NCBI GenBank assembly: GCA_020253445.1 | Contig: JADCBP010000005.1 | Location: 372,001-436,000, forward strand | Direction of reading: 5' to 3' | Length of the DNA stretch: 64,000 nt | DNA from: Methylobacterium sp. | GTDB taxonomy: Bacteria > Pseudomonadota > Alphaproteobacteria > Rhizobiales > Beijerinckiaceae | In this document: piece by piece, positions 21,655 to 31,240 of the stretch | Layout of the letters: every line of letters starts with the position of its first letter | How positions within the stretch are numbered: the stretch's first letter is position 1 | Made by a program: the position numbers and the translations under genes | The notes under the pieces: model-generated | The model's input: only the letters and a program-made list of their open reading frames with translations | Told to the model about the DNA's origin: nothing | The model's database searches: none

Positions 21655-21706
21655 ACACCACGGCCGAAAATCAATCAAGACATTGATATAACAAGAATTT
21701 TTATCT

Positions 21707-21722
21707 TGGCACGCTGCTTGGA
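21707..21722 (+). promoter_or_regulatory. Candidate sigma-54 promoter of the mrp operon
   Basis: TGGCACG-N4-TTGGA matches the -24 element of sigma-54 promoters exactly. It matches the -12 element except for GC to GG, with the correct spacing between the two. It is 89 bases before the chosen mrpA ATG. The operon it would drive ends in a GAFTGA-containing sigma-54 activator, which raises its plausibility. The mismatch in the -12 GC keeps confidence moderate. Confidence 0.5.
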
Positions 21723-21810
21723 AAGGTTGTGTTCCACAAAAGCGGAGCCATGCCTTGAACAAGAGCCGATCCGAAACATGGGCAGCGCGGAAGACAGCAG
21801 AGGGCATGCC

Positions 21811-24168
21811 ATGCCTGGCCTGACAACCCTTGCCCTGATCGGGCCGCTGATGATCGGTGTGGCCGGTGCGATCCTTCTGGCGCTTCTCCCGATCCGTCGG
21901 CCCGCTATGGCCGCGAGCCTGGCCGCTCTCGCATGTCTTGCGCTTTACCTGCCGATGTTGCCGGTGATTTCGGCCGGAGGAAGCCTCTTCGCGGCGTTCT
22001 GGGGATCAACGAGTCTCGGGATTGTCGGCGGATTGCGGCTCGACGGCCTCAGCCTGATCTTCACCCTGCTCATCACCGGCATCGGCGCGCTCATCTTCAT
22101 TTATGCGGCTGGTTATCTGTCGGAAGATCCGCGCCAGAAGCGTCTGGTGGTCTTCCTCCTCGTCTTCATGATCGCGATGCTCGGCGCGGTGACGGCCGAT
22201 GACGTCATTCTGCTCTTCGTGTTCTGGGAACTAACCAGCCTCGCCTCGTTCTTCCTCGTGGGCTACAAGCACGAGAGCCTGAAGGCCCGGAAGGCGGCGT
22301 TGCAGGCGCTGCTCGTGACAGGCAGCGGCGGCCTTGCCCTGCTTGCGGGGCTTATCCTCGTTTCGATTGCGGCCGGCACGACCAGCCTCTCGGGCATCCT
22401 CTCGGCGCGCGAAGCCGTGCTGGCGCATGCGGCCGCAGCACCGGCGATGCTGTTGATCATCCTCGGCTGCTTCACGAAATCGGCGCAGGTTCCGTTCCAT
22501 TTCTGGCTTCCCAACGCGATGGCCGCGCCAACGCCCGTCAGCGCCTATCTCCATTCCGCCACGATGGTGAAGCTCGGGATCTACCTCCTCGCCCGGCTGA
22601 ACCCGCTCTACCAGAACGAGGTGCTCTGGCAGGGAATTCTGACGTTCTTCGGGGTTGCGACAGCGGTCACCGGCGCCGTTCTGGCGTTCCGTGAAACCGA
22701 CCTCAAGCGCGTGCTGGCCTACACGACCGTGACAGCCCTGGGCACGCTTACCATGCTGATCGGCATCGCGCCGGCGCTCTCGATCACCGCGGCGATGACC
22801 TTCCTGGTGGTCCATGCCTTCTACAAGGCGGCGCTCTTCATGGTCGCGGGCATCATCGACCACGAGACGGGAACGCGGGACGCCGCTTCGCTGGGCGGCT
22901 TGCGGCGCCACATGCCGCTCACAACCGTCGCGGCCCTGCTCGCGGCCTTTTCCATGGCCGGGCTGCCGCCGTTCGTGGGCTTTGTTGCGAAGGAGCTGAT
23001 CTATGAAGCCAAGCTGGAACTGGGCCAGACCGCCGCTTTCCTGATCCTCGGGAGCTTCCTCGTGAACGCCGCAACCGTGGCCATCGCGTGCGTGCTCTCC
23101 TGGCGGGTTTTCTTCGGCGAAGCGCGCGGTTTCACCCAAGCGCCGCATGATCCGCCCAAGACCATGCTGGCCGGTCCCATCCTGCTCGCGATCCTTGGGC
23201 TGGTGGCGGGCGGGCTGCCCACCGCCTTCGGGAACGCGCTGATCGATCCCGCCGTCACGGTCGTCCTCGGTCGCCCGGCGGAGGTCACGCTGAAGCTCTG
23301 GCATGGCTTCAACCTGGTGCTGGCTTTGAGCGCAGCGACCATGGCCCTCGGCGTGCTGTTCTATCTTTCCTGGGAGCGGATCGTGCCACGCCTCCGGAGC
23401 CTTGAAGCGATGGACCGATACGGTCCCGCGGTGGGCTACGAGCGGCTGCTTGCGCAGGTGATTGCGGGAGCGGAGACGGTCACAACCACCATCCAGCACG
23501 GCTCGCTGCGCGGTTACATCCGGACCCTGTTTCTTGTCATCGCGACCGCATGCATCGGGACGTTGATCATCCGGGGTGGATTTGCCTGGCCAAGGTTGGA
23601 GGCCCCCGTTGATCCGCGTCTGGGCATTGCCTTGTTGATCATCGTGGGCGCGATCGCAGTCATGGTGGCGCGGACCTCCATTCAGGCGGTCCTGGCCATG
23701 GGGCTGGTCGGCTTTGCGACCGCGCTGATCTTCCTGTCCTTTGGCGCGCCGGACGTCGCCTTCACGCAGTTCGCGGTGGAGACGCTGCTGGTCGTGATCC
23801 TTGCAACGGCCTTGATGCGCCTGCCGCTGCGGCGTCGCGACCTTCGGACGGGCCACGAGAAGACGGTCGATCTCGCCGTTGCGCTCGGGGGCGGATTGGC
23901 TGTTGCACTGATGCTGGCCGCGGTGCTCGCGAGCCCCTTCGACCCGCGCCTCTCGCTGTGGTTCGGGGCCGAGAGCGTCCCTTCTGCCCATGGCCGGAAT
24001 GTCGTGAATGTCATTCTCGTGGATTTCCGCGCGCTTGACACCCTCGGCGAGATCACGGTGCTGGCCATTGCCGCCTTCGCTGTCGTGGCCCTGCTCCGGC
24101 GCACGCCCGAAACGCCCGAAAAGGCGTCCCAATCCCCGAACCTTGCGAAGTCCGAGGGCTCCCGATGA
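21811..24168 (+). CDS. mrpA: Mrp cation/proton antiporter subunit A
   Basis: A 785-residue polytopic protein homologous to NuoL of complex I. The proton-channel core has [18 protein letters not shown] (key Glu and Lys) and [31 protein letters not shown] in split view. The C-terminal part has the MbhD-like segment [18 protein letters not shown] and an MbhE-like stretch with [14 protein letters not shown]. It works with subunits B-G as one Na+(K+)/H+ antiporter for pH and salt homeostasis. MrpB is separate, so this is the A/B-split arrangement. The ATG at 21811 has AGAGG upstream; ATG 21778 would add eleven residues. Confidence 0.95.
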
Positions 24169-24598
24169 ACCCGTCCCTGATCCTCAGGACATCCGCGCCG
24201 CTGCTGCTCTGGGTGCCGATCTTCGTCTCGCTCTATGTGCTGGTGCGTGGCCATAATGATCCCGGCGGCGGCTTCATCGGAGGTCTGCTGGCCGCAGGCG
24301 GCATCCTGTTCTTCGCGATTGCGCGCGGCCCGGACGCGGCACGACGCGTCTTGAGGCTTTCGCCGGTGAGCTGGTGCGCGATCGGCGTGCTGGTGGCCCT
24401 CGCCAGTGGCCTTCCGGCGCTGCTCGCGCCCGGCCAGGCCTATCTCACGCATCTCTGGTGGTTCCCGAATATGGGCGTGACCCTGCCGCTGAGCACGGCT
24501 CTGGTCTTCGATGTCGGCGTCTATTTCACAGTGATCGGCACGGTGAGCGCGCTTTTCCTCGCGTTGGTGGAACTCGACAAGAGCGGGCAGAGCGCGTG

Positions 24599-24599
<1 letters not shown>
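24165..24599 (+). CDS. mrpB: Mrp antiporter subunit B
   Basis: A 144-residue membrane protein with four helices and the MnhB signature [36 protein letters not shown] segment lies near the C-terminus. It is an essential small subunit of the Mrp complex. The ATG overlaps the mrpA stop (ATGA) and its stop overlaps the mrpC ATG (TGATG), so translation of mrpA-B-C is coupled. Confidence 0.95.
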
Positions 24600-25008
<409 letters not shown>

Positions 25009-25009
<1 letters not shown>

Positions 25010-26532
25010 TGGCCCTGCTGCTTGTGGCCCCGATCCTGATCCCGCTTCTGGCGGCAGCCCTCACGGCCCTGTTCTGGCACCGCCCGGAAGTGCAACGGCC
25101 GATCGGGCTCGCTGCTTCGGCGGCCTTGCTCGGCGCTGCGCTCATGCTGCTCGCCCGCACAGCCGATGGCGCGGTGCTGGTGACCCAGATGGGCAACTGG
25201 GCCGCACCTTTCGGGATCAGCCTCGTGATCGACCTGTTCTCCGCGATCATGCTGGTGATCACCGGCCTGATGGCATTGGCCGTTTCGATCTATGCGTTGG
25301 GGCCGGCCTCGATCGAGCGCGACCGCGCCGGGTTCCAGCCGCTTTTTCACAGCCTCATCCTTGGTGTCTGCGGCTCTTTTTCGACCGGCGATATCTTCAA
25401 CCTCTATGTCTGGTTCGAAGTGATGCTGATCGCCTCCTTTGGCCTTCTCGTGCTGGAGCGCACGCGCGAGCAGCTGGATGGCGGCATCCGCTATGTGGTG
25501 CTCAACCTGATCGGCACCACGATGTTCCTGCTCGCGGTGGGCCTGCTCTACGGCCTGACGGGGACGCTGAACTTCGCGGATCTCGCCCGCATCGCGCCGA
25601 CCGTCGAGAACCAGGGGGCTCTGGCGGCGGTGGGCATGCTGCTTCTGGTCGCGTTCGGCGCGAAGGCGGCCCTGTTCCCGCTCTTCAACTGGCTGCCTGC
25701 CGCCTATCACACCGCCTCGATGCCGGTGGCGGCCATCTTCGCGGCATTGCTCACCAAGGTCGGCGTCTACGCGATCATCCGGATCTTCACGCTGGTCTTC
25801 GCCCATGAGGCCGGGTTTTTTGGCCCCGTCTTCCTCGCTGTCGCGGTGGCCACGATGGTCACCGGGGTGCTGGGCGCCGCCATGCACTACGACATCCGGA
25901 AGATCCTGTCGTTCCACATCATCAGCCAGATTGGCTACATGCTGGTGGGCGTTGCGCTGATGACGCCACTCGCGATCGCCGGCAGCATTCTCTACATCGT
26001 CCACCACATCATCGTGAAGGCGAACCTGTTCCTGCTGGCCGGGGCGATCCGGCAGGAAACCGGGTCATTCGCCCTGAAACGGATCGGCGGGCTCTGGGCG
26101 ATCAAGCCGCTGCTGGGGGTGATGTTCCTCGTTCCGGCCCTGTCGCTGGCGGGCATTCCGCCGCTCTCCGGCTTCTGGGGCAAGCTGGTTGTCATCCGCT
26201 CGGGCCTTGAGGCGGAAGCCTACTGGCTCGCCGGCATCGCGCTCGCGGTGGGCGTTCTCACGCTCTACTCGATGATCAAGATCTGGAACGAGGCCTTCTG
26301 GAAGGCTCTGCCGGAGGATGGGCCGTCGCCCCTGCCCTGGAACGCGCGCGAGCGGCTCGCGACCTATGCGCCAATCGTCGTGCTCGGCGGAATGACCATC
26401 ACCATCGGTCTTCTCACCGAGCCCTTCGCGGCGCTCTCGATCGAGGCCGCGGAAAGCCTCCTCGACCGGAATGCCTATATCGCAGCCGTGCTCGGCCCTG
26501 ACGCTTCCCGCCTTGCGGAGATCAAGCCATGA
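25009..26532 (+). CDS. mrpD: Mrp antiporter subunit D
   Basis: A 507-residue NuoN/M-like antiporter subunit with about fourteen helices. Conserved proton-path residues appear in NLYVWFEVMLIASFGLL, in the KAALFPLFNWLPAAYHTA segment and in HIISQIGYMLVG. The ATG at 25009 has a consensus AGGAGG seven bases upstream, and GTG 25006 is less likely. It partners MrpA in the Mrp complex. Its stop overlaps the mrpE ATG. Confidence 0.95.
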
Positions 26533-26885
26533 CCGATCCTGTTCCAGCGCGGCCCGGGCGCCATTCCATCCTCGGTTGGGTCCGGGTGGCCACCACCTTT
26601 GCTGCAGAACTCGTGCTCTCCGCCTGGGCCACGATCAAGGCCGTGCTGAGCCCGCCGGAGAAGCTCCGCCCCGCGATCCTCGCCGTCCCCCTCGATGTCC
26701 GCTCGGAGGGTGGCATCACGCTCTTTGCCAGCATGGTGACACTGACCCCGGGCACCACAAGCCTCGAGGTCTCGCCCGATGCCACGCAGCTTTACGTGCA
26801 TGTGATGGACGCCCCGGACCATGCAGCCGCCATCGCGGCGATGAAATCCACGCTCGAAGCCCGCGCCCGGGAGGTTCTGCCATGA
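26529..26885 (+). CDS. mrpE: Mrp antiporter subunit E, short form
   Basis: A 118-residue protein aligned with the C-terminal two thirds of MrpE: AILAVPLDVRSEGGITLFAS, MVTLTPGTTSLEVSPD and LYVHVMD are the diagnostic blocks. MrpE proteins are usually about 160 residues and start with a pair of transmembrane helices. Here the N-terminus is a short polar stretch followed by a single helix (about residues 15-40). The ATG overlaps the mrpD stop, so a longer form in this frame would have to run inside mrpD. The shortening appears genuine. Confidence 0.88.
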   Translation: MTDPVPARPGRHSILGWVRVATTFAAELVLSAWATIKAVLSPPEKLRPAILAVPLDVRSEGGITLFASMVTLTPGTTSLEVSPDATQLYVHVMDAPDHAAAIAAMKSTLEARAREVLP

Positions 26886-27169
26886 CGCTGCTGATGCTCT
26901 GCAAGGGGGTCGCGATTGGCCTCGTTTCGCTTTCCGTCCTCGCGGTTGGCTGGCGCCTGCTGCGCGGGCCCTCCACCGCAGACCGGGTGATTGCCACCGA
27001 CATGCTCGGGCTTCTGGGCATCTGCATCGCGGCGCTCGTGGCGGGCGTGACCGGGTCTCAGGCCTTTCTCGATGTCGCCTTCGGGATCGCGCTCTTCGGT
27101 TTCCTGACAGCCGTAGCCTTCAGCGCCCTTCTCGAGCGCGTGAGCGCGGGGCGGGAGCCTACGGAATGA
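26882..27169 (+). CDS. mrpF: Mrp antiporter subunit F
   Basis: A 95-residue protein with three transmembrane helices. The conserved block RLLRGPSTADRVIATDMLGLLGI identifies MrpF/MnhF (quoted in part here). It overlaps both neighbours by four bases (ATGA), keeping the tight coupling of the operon. Confidence 0.93.
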   Translation: MTLLMLCKGVAIGLVSLSVLAVGWRLLRGPSTADRVIATDMLGLLGICIAALVAGVTGSQAFLDVAFGIALFGFLTAVAFSALLERVSAGREPTE

Positions 27170-28473
27170 GCACGGTCCTTGCCATCCTTGCCGGTGGTGC
27201 GATCCTTCTCGGTGCCGGGATCGTCGCGATCGCCGCCGTGGGCCTGCTGCGCCTGCCGGATCCCTTCACGCGCATGCATGCCGCGACAAAGGCCGGCGTG
27301 CTCGGGTCCGGTCTCCTGATGCTCGGCGTCGGGCTTTCGATCGGCAGCGTGGGGGCGATCCTGACCGGATTGGCCGGCATGGCCTTCCTGCTCGCGACCT
27401 CGCCGATTGCCTCTCATGCCCTCGGCCGGGCCGCCTACATCTCCGGCGGCCCCATCGCGCCGAGCACGCTCACAGACGCCCTGCGCGGCGTTCTTCCCCG
27501 CAATGTCTTCGATATCAGTCCCGGCCGCGTGGTCCGTCCCCATCGTGATCCCGCGCCAACCCTCGGAAATTCGACCGCACAGGAAGGAAACATCATGAGT
27601 GCAGCCGAAAACAGGAACTACGCCACCGCTCCGCTCAGTCCGGGACGGACGCAGCTGCGTGCCTTGACGGCCTGGCTGGTTGGCGGGCCCTCCCAATCCG
27701 AGGCTTCCGCAACCGCTCTGGATATCGCGGAAGCCGCAGGAGCCCGGCTCACCGGCCTTTCCGCGCTTGATGCCGATGCGGCTGATCATCCGGGGCCTGT
27801 CCCGGTCGGAGGCATGGCCTGGGCCCGCTGGCTGGGTGATCAACGCCGGACGCGCATGCGCGAACGGGCAAGCAAATCCATCGCCGAATTCGACGAGCTA
27901 TGCTTCGCGCGCCACGTCAAGACCCAGGTCCGCCACGAGGAACGGAACTTCCCGACGCTGGTTCTGGCAGCGGCTGGCGCGGATATCCTTGTGGTGCCGG
28001 CGGGTGTTGACCGCCTCGGAGAGCCAGCTTCGCCCACCGAAGAGATCGCGACGGAGCTTTCCGTTGCGGGGATCGCGCCGGTCCTGCGGGTGCGTCGCCG
28101 CCCTCACTCCGTTCGGCGCATCCTGCTGATCGTCTCCCTCACACCGCACGCCGGCCGGCTCGCCCATGCCTTGATCCGCACCGGTCTGTGGCAGTCCGCC
28201 GATGTCGAGGTCACGACCATTGGCGGCATGCGCGACCAGCTTGATTTTCTCGCTCGGGAACAGGCGGCGCTTCTGGAACAGCACGGCTACCGGGTGCAGG
28301 TCACAGCCCCCATCGATTTCGATGCGGACCGGGCTGAGATGCTGGCGCGTCTTTCCCGTGCCGATGCCGTCATCTGTCCGACCCTGAGCCATCGCCGCGG
28401 CTGGTTTGGCTCCATCCGGGAGGACCTTCACGAACTCGCCGCCGAGCGGGCTGACTTGATCTTGCTGCCGTAA
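27166..28473 (+). CDS. mrpG: MrpG fused in frame to a universal-stress-protein-like region
   Basis: A 435-residue frame. Residues 1 to about 85 are MrpG, with three helices and the signature GLLRLPDPFTRMHAATKAG. A polar linker leads to Met144 at 27595, preceded by AGGAAGGAAA, a good Shine-Dalgarno. From there the sequence resembles two USP half-modules: TAWLVGGPSQSEASATALDI ending near ADILVVPAGV, and RRILLIVSLTPHAGRLAHAL ending ADLILLP. The glycine-rich ATP motif of classic USPs is missing in both. Either one fusion protein is made, or a separate USP-like protein is also produced from the internal ATG. No stop codon separates them. The gene ends 35 bases before the sensor kinase. Confidence 0.85.
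   Translation: MSTVLAILAGGAILLGAGIVAIAAVGLLRLPDPFTRMHAATKAGVLGSGLLMLGVGLSIGSVGAILTGLAGMAFLLATSPIASHALGRAAYISGGPIAPSTLTDALRGVLPRNVFDISPGRVVRPHRDPAPTLGNSTAQEGNIMSAAENRNYATAPLSPGRTQLRALTAWLVGGPSQSEASATALDIAEAAGARLTGLSALDADAADHPGPVPVGGMAWARWLGDQRRTRMRERASKSIAEFDELCFARHVKTQVRHEERNFPTLVLAAAGADILVVPAGVDRLGEPASPTEEIATELSVAGIAPVLRVRRRPHSVRRILLIVSLTPHAGRLAHALIRTGLWQSADVEVTTIGGMRDQLDFLAREQAALLEQHGYRVQVTAPIDFDADRAEMLARLSRADAVICPTLSHRRGWFGSIREDLHELAAERADLILLP
27595..28473 (+). other. Possible internal translation start producing a free USP-like protein
   Basis: An in-frame ATG at 27595 (residue 144 of the mrpG frame) follows AGGAAGGAAACATC. The product would be 292 residues, starting MSAAENRNYA, and would contain only the USP-like region. 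In most Mrp operons mrpG ends as a protein of roughly 90-130 residues, so the upstream part of this frame may be a read-through of a formerly separate gene. Whether one, two or both products exist cannot be read from DNA. Confidence 0.5.
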
Positions 28474-28508
28474 TCAGCCACCCCATCCCGCGAAGGGGTG
28501 CGCGCAGG

Positions 28509-29915
28509 ATGGTTTTACCGGGCAACAGGCAATTCGAGCGGCGAGCCAGCGCCTTGAAGTTACCGTTCTTTGCAGCGCTGATCGTGTTCGTCGTGGCCGT
28601 TGCCAGCACGCAACTGGCGCTTCGCCTGGCCAACCGGGAGGCTGACCAGCAGATCGAGCGGCTGGCCAATGTCTATCTCGACGGCTTGAAGGCGAGCACC
28701 CAGCCCTTCATCGAGGCGGAGAATTGGCCGGCCGTGGATGCAGGCTTCCGGCGCGCCTTCACCGTCCAGAAAGGCGTTGCCGAGGTCGGGCTCTATCTCG
28801 TCGACAGCCATGGCTCTGCATTGGTCTCTACGGCGACCGGTGCTTCTCCAACGATCCCGACATCCATTTCCTCGGGAGCACAATCCTTCCGGCTGGATTC
28901 CTCCGCCGGCCTTGCCTGGGTCCGCCGCAGCACGACCTCGGATGAGAAACATGCCCTGGTCGCAGCGCTCGATGTGAGCGACACCATTTCTGCGCGCGGG
29001 CGGCTTTTCTGGAGCGTTGCGCTGCTGGATCTGATCATCGCCGCCCTCTGCGGGCTCCTGACCTATCTCGTCCTGCGCCGCCTGGGGCGCCCCATCGATG
29101 GCCTGCTCGCGCTGCTTCAGGATGGCGCCCGGCGGCCCGAGCCCGTACCCCCGACGCTTGCGGCAAGGGCGAGCAAGGAATTGAGACCTGTTCTGGCCGC
29201 CTATAACGAGATGATCGATGGCCTGCGCGACCGGGACCGGTTGAGGGCCGAGATCGCCGAGCGCACGCAGGCCGCCGCGCTCGGGCGGCTCGCCGCGACC
29301 CTGGCCCATGAGGTTCGCAACCCGCTTGGTGGCCTCGCGACCGCCGTGACAACCTTGCGGAAGTTCGGTGGCGACCCCCAGGTTCGCGCGGAGTCGCTCG
29401 AATTTCTCGCTCGCGGCATCGATTCGCTGGATGCGCTCGTCACGCGCACGCTGAATGTCTACCGGCCCGAGGATGAAAGGCGTTTTGCCCGCGAGGATTT
29501 CGAGGATATCCGCCTGCTCGTGGAACCGGCGGCCCGAAAGCAGGAGGTGGAACTGGCCTTCGAGATCGAGGTGCCGGGCCCGGTCAATATTGCCGCCAGT
29601 GGTGTTCGGCAGGTTCTGCTCAACCTTTTGCTCAACGCGGTTGCTGTCTCGCCCCGTTCCGGGCGCGTCTGCCTTGAAGCCCGGATCGTGGAGCAACAAC
29701 TCACATGCCTGGTCAGCGACGAGGGGCCGGGCATGGAGCAAAGCCATATTCGCCGCCTGTTGGGCGAGGACGCGCAGGATATCCGCTCGCGCCGGATCGG
29801 GATTGATGCGATCGTATCGATCTTGGGTGATCTGAATGCGCGCGTTTCCGTGCAAGGCAATGCCGGGGGCGGAACCGCCGTCCGTGTTGAAATCCCACTG
29901 GAAGCGCAGCCATGA
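28509..29915 (+). CDS. Sensor histidine kinase of the mrp operon
   Basis: A 468-residue membrane kinase. Helices at about 18-40 and 168-190 bracket a periplasmic sensor of about 125 residues with no recognised family. A HAMP-like stretch follows, then the H-box LAATLAHEVRNPLGGL (His267). The ATPase domain has the N-box LLNLLLNAVAVSP and DEGPGMEQ. This arrangement resembles the NtrB/DctB-type kinases that pair with sigma-54 activators. Its stop overlaps the start of such a regulator (ATGA). The likely signal is external pH, sodium or a related cell-envelope stress, which is inference from the Mrp context. Confidence 0.93.
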   Translation: MVLPGNRQFERRASALKLPFFAALIVFVVAVASTQLALRLANREADQQIERLANVYLDGLKASTQPFIEAENWPAVDAGFRRAFTVQKGVAEVGLYLVDSHGSALVSTATGASPTIPTSISSGAQSFRLDSSAGLAWVRRSTTSDEKHALVAALDVSDTISARGRLFWSVALLDLIIAALCGLLTYLVLRRLGRPIDGLLALLQDGARRPEPVPPTLAARASKELRPVLAAYNEMIDGLRDRDRLRAEIAERTQAAALGRLAATLAHEVRNPLGGLATAVTTLRKFGGDPQVRAESLEFLARGIDSLDALVTRTLNVYRPEDERRFAREDFEDIRLLVEPAARKQEVELAFEIEVPGPVNIAASGVRQVLLNLLLNAVAVSPRSGRVCLEARIVEQQLTCLVSDEGPGMEQSHIRRLLGEDAQDIRSRRIGIDAIVSILGDLNARVSVQGNAGGGTAVRVEIPLEAQP

Positions 29916-31240
29916 ATTCTTCGGCACCAGCCATGGGCGGCAGGGACGGGGCCAAGATCCTGTTGATCGAGGATGATCCCACGCTCGGGCCGGCGATGTC
30001 GCAGCGCCTGCGCCTGGAAGGCTTTGACGTCTTGCTTGCACCGGATGGCGCTTCGGCCATCCGCAAGGCGCGTGCCTTTCCGCCTGACCTTGTTCTGAGC
30101 GATATGCGCCTCCCGGACGGCACCGGCGAGGATGTTTTCCGGCAGATCACGGGAACCCTGGGGCTTCTCCCTTACATCTTCATGACGGCCTTCGGGGAGG
30201 TTCAACAGGCCGTGCGCCTGGTGAAAGCCGGCGCGCGTGACTACCTCATCAAGCCGGTCGATACCGACGCGCTCGTCACCCTCATCCAGCAGATGGTCCA
30301 GAGGTCAGAATCCGTGCCGCTGGAAAAGGATCGGAGAGAACAGCGCACAAGTTCCATGAACGCCTTCGAGGCCACCCTCGGAAAGGCGGCGCGCAGCGAT
30401 CTTCCTCTTTTGCTCTTGGGCGAAACAGGCGTTGGCAAGGAACGGGCTGCACGCCTCGCGCATGCTGCCTCTCGCTGCGCCTCCGGCCCCTTCGTTCCGC
30501 TGAATTGCGCGGCACTCCCGCTGGATCTCGCGGAGAGTCTGCTCTTTGGCCACGAAAAGGGAGCCTTCACGGGCGCCGTCTCCCGGATGCCGGGTGTGGT
30601 GCGGGAGGCGGATCAGGGCACGCTGTTTCTGGATGAAATCGCCGAATTGCCAATCGCGCTTCAATCCAAGCTCCTCCGCTTGCTTCAGGAGAAGACCTAC
30701 CGGCCCGTCGGCGCGATCGAGCAGCGATCCTTTGGCGGCCGGGTGATTGCCGCAACGCATCGCGATCTGAAGGCCATGATCGCAGCCGGAACCTTTCGGG
30801 AAGACCTGTATTTCCGTCTGGCGGTGATCGAACTCGTGATTCCCCCTTTGCGAGAGCGACGGGATGAGATCGTTCCGCTCGCGAACGCGTTCCTCGCGGG
30901 CTCGGCCCCCGAGGGGCAATCTCTCTCCATTTCGGCCGAAGCGATGCCCTTGCTTCTCGATCATTCATGGCCGGGCAATATTCGAGAATTGCGCAACCGG
31001 ATCGAACGCGCGGCCGCCCTTCGCGACCATGATGTGCTGACATCGGCAGATCTGTTTCCAGAGCGCGCCCCTGTGAACGCCCGATCCGACCTCGAAGCCG
31101 ATCAAACCCTGGAAGCCGTCGCCGAGGCGGCCATCCGCAGCCGGGTCGCGGCCGCGCTTCAGGCCACGGGGGGCAATCAAACGGAGGCCGCGCGCAGGCT
31201 TGGCGTCTCTCGAACGACGGTCTGGAAGTATTCGAAATAG
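29912..31240 (+). CDS. NtrC-family sigma-54-dependent response regulator
   Basis: A 442-residue activator with three domains. The receiver (about 14-130) has the acidic pair EDD at 20-22, Asp64 in LSDMRLPDG and the conserved lysine in YLIKP. The AAA+ domain has Walker A GETGVGKE (170-177), the sigma-54 contact loop GAFTGA (217-222) and Walker B LFLDE. A Fis-type helix-turn-helix (about 415-440) ends in GNQTEAARRLGVSRTTVWKY. It overlaps the kinase gene by four bases. An intact GAFTGA implies action at sigma-54 promoters; a candidate lies before mrpA. Confidence 0.95.
   Translation: MNSSAPAMGGRDGAKILLIEDDPTLGPAMSQRLRLEGFDVLLAPDGASAIRKARAFPPDLVLSDMRLPDGTGEDVFRQITGTLGLLPYIFMTAFGEVQQAVRLVKAGARDYLIKPVDTDALVTLIQQMVQRSESVPLEKDRREQRTSSMNAFEATLGKAARSDLPLLLLGETGVGKERAARLAHAASRCASGPFVPLNCAALPLDLAESLLFGHEKGAFTGAVSRMPGVVREADQGTLFLDEIAELPIALQSKLLRLLQEKTYRPVGAIEQRSFGGRVIAATHRDLKAMIAAGTFREDLYFRLAVIELVIPPLRERRDEIVPLANAFLAGSAPEGQSLSISAEAMPLLLDHSWPGNIRELRNRIERAAALRDHDVLTSADLFPERAPVNARSDLEADQTLEAVAEAAIRSRVAAALQATGGNQTEAARRLGVSRTTVWKYSK

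Follow-up and report, generated by a model that had tools for sequence, protein, structure and literature searches.

The mrpG gene that closes an mrpABCDEFG operon of Methylobacterium sp. continues in frame into a tandem universal stress protein (USP)-like region, and comparison with its relatives firmly supports this MrpG::USP fusion as real and conserved. The gene lies in a stretch of 64,000 nucleotides that we analyzed as a whole and refer to as the window (G000:C14:372001-436000, in a genome of 3.28 Mb). It is best explained as part of a group I Mrp operon of a separate alphaproteobacterial type, whose MrpG bears a tandem USP-like domain on the cytoplasmic side. For the subtype that includes the window, type c, we lean towards a gene that provides both an Mrp-tethered and a free USP, with a link from the USP to a kinase and two-component control of the antiporter operon. 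Among the elements of this reading, the conserved fusion, the nested start and the linked kinase, regulator and promoter are supported by sequence comparison.

The operon has the seven genes A to G, with mrpA and mrpB separate, as in the group I Mrp (Mnh/Pha) Na+/H+ antiporters (groups I and II as defined in PMC9568556):

21811–24168, + strand: mrpA (inferred start; the mechanical open reading frame runs from TTG 21706)
24165–24599, + strand: mrpB
24596–25009, + strand: mrpC (inferred start)
25006–26532, + strand: mrpD
26529–26885, + strand: mrpE (PF01899, E 2e-29)
26882–27169, + strand: mrpF (inferred start; PF04066, E 1e-12)
27166–28473, + strand: mrpG::usp fusion gene, 435 aa (29 further fusion loci read)
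27202–27438, + strand: MrpG domain, residues 13–91 of the fusion (PF03334, E 4.3e-21)

The last of these genes, in the place of MrpG, is a single in-frame open reading frame of 435 codons. It scores 75.4 bits against PF03334 (cut-off 23.4), and more than 320 further residues follow the MrpG part without a stop. Its length exceeds that of the usual MrpG (about 100–200 aa; the NCBIfam MrpG models listed span 97–197). In the solved Bacillus complex, MrpG is described as three transmembrane helices arranged in a line (PMC9568556), whereas the MrpG of the window adds about 290 USP-like residues after this part. The original prediction of an MrpG reading in frame into about 290 tandem USP-like residues is borne out by the PF03334 match, the open codons and the relatives described below.

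We read at least 30 fusion loci in 29 genomes, spanning 11 family codes and 17 genus codes, and a single stop ends all 30 fusion frames. The second species, G010, has the same frame, with 98% protein identity and 95.7% DNA identity over 5,030 bases. MrpG was found in at least 138 and fusions in at least 12 of the 397 genomes of the family sample; at least four of the 385 genomes of the class sample have full-length fusions besides that of the window, and the 392 genomes of the order sample hold at least ten more. The families of three of the class-sample fusion genomes yielded at least three more fusions, and the two genomes that make up the order of the fourth contributed no further one; all of these searches are samples, and the counts of fusions are lower bounds rather than rates. 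Two long open frames, L064 and L065, turned out not to be fusions once read, and a 400-aa frame in G499:C126 matches the USP part only.

Within the genus, the fusion protein finds no match in 15 of 17 genomes, and none of these 15 has an MrpG among the matches listed. Such a distribution would fit a sequencing error, or an accident in a single strain that removed the stop of mrpG. That explanation is refuted by the same frame in G010 and by 28 further full-length open fusion loci, and we give it a probability close to nil. The original prediction had feared a stop hidden by a sequencing error between the two parts, and none was seen in the relatives; its other concern, that relatives might always keep the two as separate genes, is answered by the same fusion across these family codes, although separate genes occur as well.

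The USP label for the C-terminal part comes from the profiles of relatives and partly from the fold, the window protein alone not being named by Pfam. Taken by itself, the C-part gives no match at E ≤ 1 in Pfam or NCBIfam, not even to PF00582. Of the nine members of profile A4, six match PF00582 with E ≤ 1 (the best at 7.4e-8); L104 (33.2 bits) and L025 (32.8) lie above the 24-bit cut-off, L103 (20.5) lies below it, and L105, L106, and L172 have no PF00582 match at E ≤ 1. Profile A4 matches the PDB USPs 3s3t (7.7e-5) and 3ab7 (1.7e-4), and a type-c profile with two Skermanella rows inside aligns by hhalign with four PF00582-positive tandem USPs at E 3.5e-22. The USP-like character claimed for the C-part in the original prediction holds through the PF00582 matches of relatives and through profile A4, but not through a direct Pfam or NCBIfam match. 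The ATP glycine motif, G-2X-G-9X-G(S/T/N), is missing from the C-part as had been claimed. It is equally missing from the other 39 sequences, clear PF00582 members included, so its absence separates nothing. An AlphaFold model from the window sequence and the 98% relative only has a mean pLDDT of 46 and leaves the first half unmodelled. The Foldseek top five for this model are KCC2, KCC3, KCC4, and Dot1L besides one USP, and on both counts only the C-half match was taken.

In a tree of the USP parts (40 rows), a starred branch sets off the 15 rows of type a and another the 5 rows of type b. Type c (the window, L103, L105, L106, and L172–L174) falls inside a starred set of 11 that also contains free USPs, those of Skermanella and L022/L023. 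The USP of L104 branches apart while its MrpD groups with type c at 94/91, and L104 was assigned to type c by MrpD and junction after the junction had been inspected. In the MrpD tree (49 operons, rooted at the midpoint only) the 29 fused rows lie together with support of 80/95 and two changes of state, and one unfused long-branch operon, L066, falls inside the fused group in a placement that the program calls unsure. Since the fused rows group together with two state changes, the simplest reading is a single origin, after which the USP part diverged; type c may instead have an independent origin. The 720-aa fusion encoded by L018 (8657–10819) has two consecutive USP pairs, of which one falls with type a and one with type b. 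It looks like an intermediate, one pair of which would have been lost in other lineages. Two unfused Mrp operons, L107 and L108, have a divergent free USP adjoining mrpA that is closest by BLAST to the type-b USP, and in L007, where a free usp gene neighbors an unfused Mrp operon, transposase-like frames (41–1002; DDE_3, E 5.1e-25) are located about 0.5 kb away from that usp gene.

The cluster at 21700–31240 may have been transferred sideways, given the 15 genus genomes above and a nearest whole cluster that, among the matches listed, is in another family code (L106, MrpD 80%). Its G+C content is 65.4%, and that of the rest of the window is 65.5%. In plasmid records, the P0001 and C-part queries both match the same two Skermanella plasmids, the type-a fusion query has no match, and the type-b fusion query finds no place covering 80% of its length; the stretches matched by the latter correspond to about the MrpG part only (15 listed of 21 records).

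The junction between the two parts contains a candidate second start, with the following features:

27502–27594, + strand: junction linker, residues 113–143 (25 to 37 codons across nine type-c fusions)
27581–27589, + strand: internal Shine-Dalgarno AGGAAGGAA (anti-SD duplex −6.5 kcal/mol)
27595–28473, + strand: nested usp frame from the internal ATG, 292 aa, tandem USP-like

The ribosome-site sequence that had been pointed out before an in-frame ATG is indeed present, as CAGGAAGGAAACATCATG at 27580–27597, which places AGGAAGGAA-N5-ATG with its ATG at 27595. A junction ATG preceded by a Shine-Dalgarno of −6.5 or better is found in 9/9 type-c fusions and in 1/21 fusions of types a and b (L184, −7.2). 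Without L104, and without G010 as a near-duplicate of the window, the type-c count is 7/7. The type-c values are −6.5 (window and G010), −6.6, −8.3, −9.5 in three cases, −11.6, and −11.7 kcal/mol, the site of the window, equal in G010, being the weakest of the nine. With GTG and TTG counted, 4 of the 21 type a/b junctions have sites at −6.5 or better (L060, L175, L179, and L184), and some of these fusions may have weak nested starts. Among 322 other internal ATGs in 27 other genes of the type-c clusters, 5.0% reach −6.5. From this background rate, the chance of such a site in a 40-codon stretch is 0.044, to be read with the shared ancestry of the nine nested starts in mind.

The surroundings of the nested ATG are conserved too. 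An A directly follows the ATG in 7 of the 8 non-duplicate type-c junctions compared with 54 of the 322 background ATGs, and pairwise identity (28 pairs) is 62% at positions −14 to −6 versus 36% at −60 to −19. The free USPs of Skermanella start at the homologous place, with GGAGGGAGCC preceding the ATG, and begin with MTPIPF or MKPIPF; the type-c fusion L105 has MTAIPF there. Conservation of the nested start in type c is well supported by these comparisons. In 7 of the 8 non-duplicate junctions the start reads ATGA, so that a +1-frame TGA overlaps it. Any ribosomes shifting into the +1 frame within the linker would terminate right at the nested ATG, an arrangement resembling that of coupled genes; the ATGA may also be merely the usual A after a start codon.

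One reading of the internal site is that it is a relic of an ancestral separate usp gene and that MrpG::USP is the sole product. The free USPs of Skermanella and L022/L023 within the type-c set imply that this lineage once had a separate usp gene that carried its own start, and most fusions of types a and b manage without a comparable ATG start (1/21). A relic should decay, however, and both the Shine-Dalgarno and the ATG persist in all nine type-c members, the near-duplicate G010 among them. The starts were kept even though the USP parts are 42–49% identical to that of the window (35% for L104) and the linkers have turned over. We therefore regard the fusion as sole product as unlikely.

The converse reading is that the free USP made from 27595 does the work and that read-through from mrpG is a tolerated by-product. 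It draws on the strong Shine-Dalgarno in most type-c members, on the homology to free USP starts and on the linker, where base changes in most pairs do not clearly favor third positions. Ahead of the junction ATG, the +1 frame is interrupted in 3/9 and the +2 frame in 5/9 type-c fusions, and neither is interrupted in 4/9 (L105, L172, L173, and L104); most +1-frame stops around the junctions are the TGA that overlaps the ATG or lie beyond it. In this G+C-rich DNA, an open frame alone therefore says little. The phase of the linkers speaks for the type-c fusion more than the open frame does: they have six lengths (25, 26, 27, 31, 33, and 37 codons), each in phase and stop-free, whereas five length changes, if free, would all be in phase with a chance of about (1/3)^5. 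Furthermore, most type a/b fusions lack a comparable nested start, so that fusion is the evident route to USP translation there. A role for the free product alone is in our judgment distinctly improbable. A membrane-tethered fusion and a nested gene yielding both a fusion and a free USP had been put forward as alternatives; the comparison supports each of them, and in type c the two look to be true together. The linker is net basic in 6/9 type-c fusions, neutral in the window and G010, and acidic in L104, a distribution that fits the positive-inside rule only in part.

Two further genes follow the fusion, and a promoter-like site precedes mrpA:

28509–29915, + strand: sensor histidine kinase (HisKA and HATPase_c; membrane segment by eye)
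29912–31240, + strand: NtrC-type regulator (receiver, sigma-54 interaction domain, Fis-type HTH; PF00158 E 2.6e-59, PF00072 E 8.7e-23)
21707–21721, + strand: sigma-54-type promoter TGGCAC-N5-TTGG (9/10 consensus letters; the −12 C is G)

The translated regulator contains GAFTGA, combines a receiver with a sigma-54 domain, and is found in a genome that encodes RpoN, as expected of a sigma-54-dependent two-component regulator. Kinase and regulator lie within 6 kb downstream in 22/27 fused loci (21/26 others and the window) versus 0/19 unfused loci, the other fused loci counted being those with more than 2.5 kb of downstream sequence and the unfused L122 being left out for its short downstream sequence. 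In L173 the kinase lies some 4.5 kb away and is followed by the regulator, and the L059 copies of both genes appear fragmented into short frames.

The promoter has a similar distribution. G010 carries TGGCACGCGGCTTGG upstream of mrpA, and TGGCAC-N5-TTGC with at least 9/10 letters is found in 21/26 fused loci (23/28 with G010 and L183) versus 2/20 unfused loci, the latter being the 20 mrpA-first loci at hand rather than a random set, with the unfused L064, L068, and L069 excluded because their genes are ordered differently. All ten letters are present in 8/26 fused and 0/20 unfused loci. The scan ran from 500 before to 300 after the mechanical mrpA start, L106 and L182 falling outside it for too little sequence before mrpA, and the rate within the window itself predicts about 0.04 chance sites per locus. 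We adopted the ten-letter scan once the window site had been spotted by eye, and a stricter first scan (GG at −24, GC at −12) found sites in 12/26 fused loci and missed that of the window. On two Skermanella plasmids (L025 and L026, 7926–11615), a USP, a kinase, and a regulator stand in a row, the kinase 44–45% and the regulator 52–55% identical to those of the window, and no Mrp match was found within the surrounding 16.8 kb. The module may hence exist apart from the antiporter. Taken together, the gene neighborhoods suggest that kinase, regulator, and sigma-54-type promoter are likely the context of the fusion, a connection that the original prediction had not drawn.

In the reading that we favor, ribosomes starting at 27166 would make MrpG::USP, which would be incorporated in the antiporter, and those starting at the conserved 27595 would make the free USP. 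With the tail presumed to exit from TMH3, the tethered USP would lie on the cytoplasmic face near the MrpE/MrpG end, where it would link the antiporter to the histidine kinase of the adjacent gene, as a receiver or scaffold. The free USP would bind the same partner and set the balance. The USP at the antiporter may read an ion or nucleotide state and relay it to the kinase, and the phosphorylated NtrC-type regulator would then act on the −24/−12 promoter before mrpA. We infer that both products are made, that the USP part contacts the kinase or gates transport, and that it has a ligand. A more specific version, in which the free USP competes with the tethered one for the kinase so that the cell gauges working Mrp or ion load and adjusts the operon via sigma-54, is a tentative proposal that we hold to be rather doubtful.

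The USP part might instead gate transport directly. MrpG TMH3, which is broken by an essential proline, is described as contacting the cytoplasmic domain of MrpE near the proposed Na+ path (PMC7419157, PMC9568556), a position compatible with gating. Direct gating is also favored by fused loci with no kinase or regulator homologue downstream (L058, L060, L180, for which 2.5 kb only is at hand, and L181). L058 and L060 have a 10/10 promoter despite the missing pair. The Skermanella plasmids, where the USP accompanies kinase and regulator without Mrp, argue against it in that they imply that the USP can travel with the kinase. We consider direct gating somewhat unlikely, and retain the kinase-linked reading as the preferred one.

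Several known systems resemble parts of this arrangement. In E. coli, UspC reportedly scaffolds KdpD/KdpE. In S. aureus, c-di-AMP is bound by the USP domain of KdpD; a USP tied to a kinase controlling an ion transporter operon is the feature shared with the arrangement proposed for the window (PMC4686210). The window differs from KdpD/UspC in having its USP fused to a transporter subunit and in encoding a sigma-54-type regulator. In Halomonas, the USP of the ectoine transporter TeaABC, TeaD, is a separate protein of a TRAP transporter, whereas the USP of the window is fused to Mrp. Proteins in which a USP domain is joined to a Cl− channel, a Na+/H+ antiporter domain, a kinase, or a permease are known (PMC8509486), so that a transporter bearing a USP has precedents; the passage concerned names no Mrp subunit, nested start, or two-component genes. 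Among the titles and first lines of abstracts listed from the open-access literature, we found no paper on a fusion of USP with MrpG or another Mrp subunit; as this search covered open-access literature only, it does not prove the absence of MrpG-USP in print. Nor did the open-access literature yield a paper that joins an Mrp antiporter, a two-component system, and sigma 54.

The recurrent MrpG::USP fusion, with its kinase, regulator, and promoter, offers a compact system in which to ask whether a USP reads the ion state at the pump. A nested start that is kept in one subtype and mostly missing in two others provides a clean test of tethered and free forms, and the USP-like tail beside a two-component regulator suggests an ion pump with a built-in sensor.
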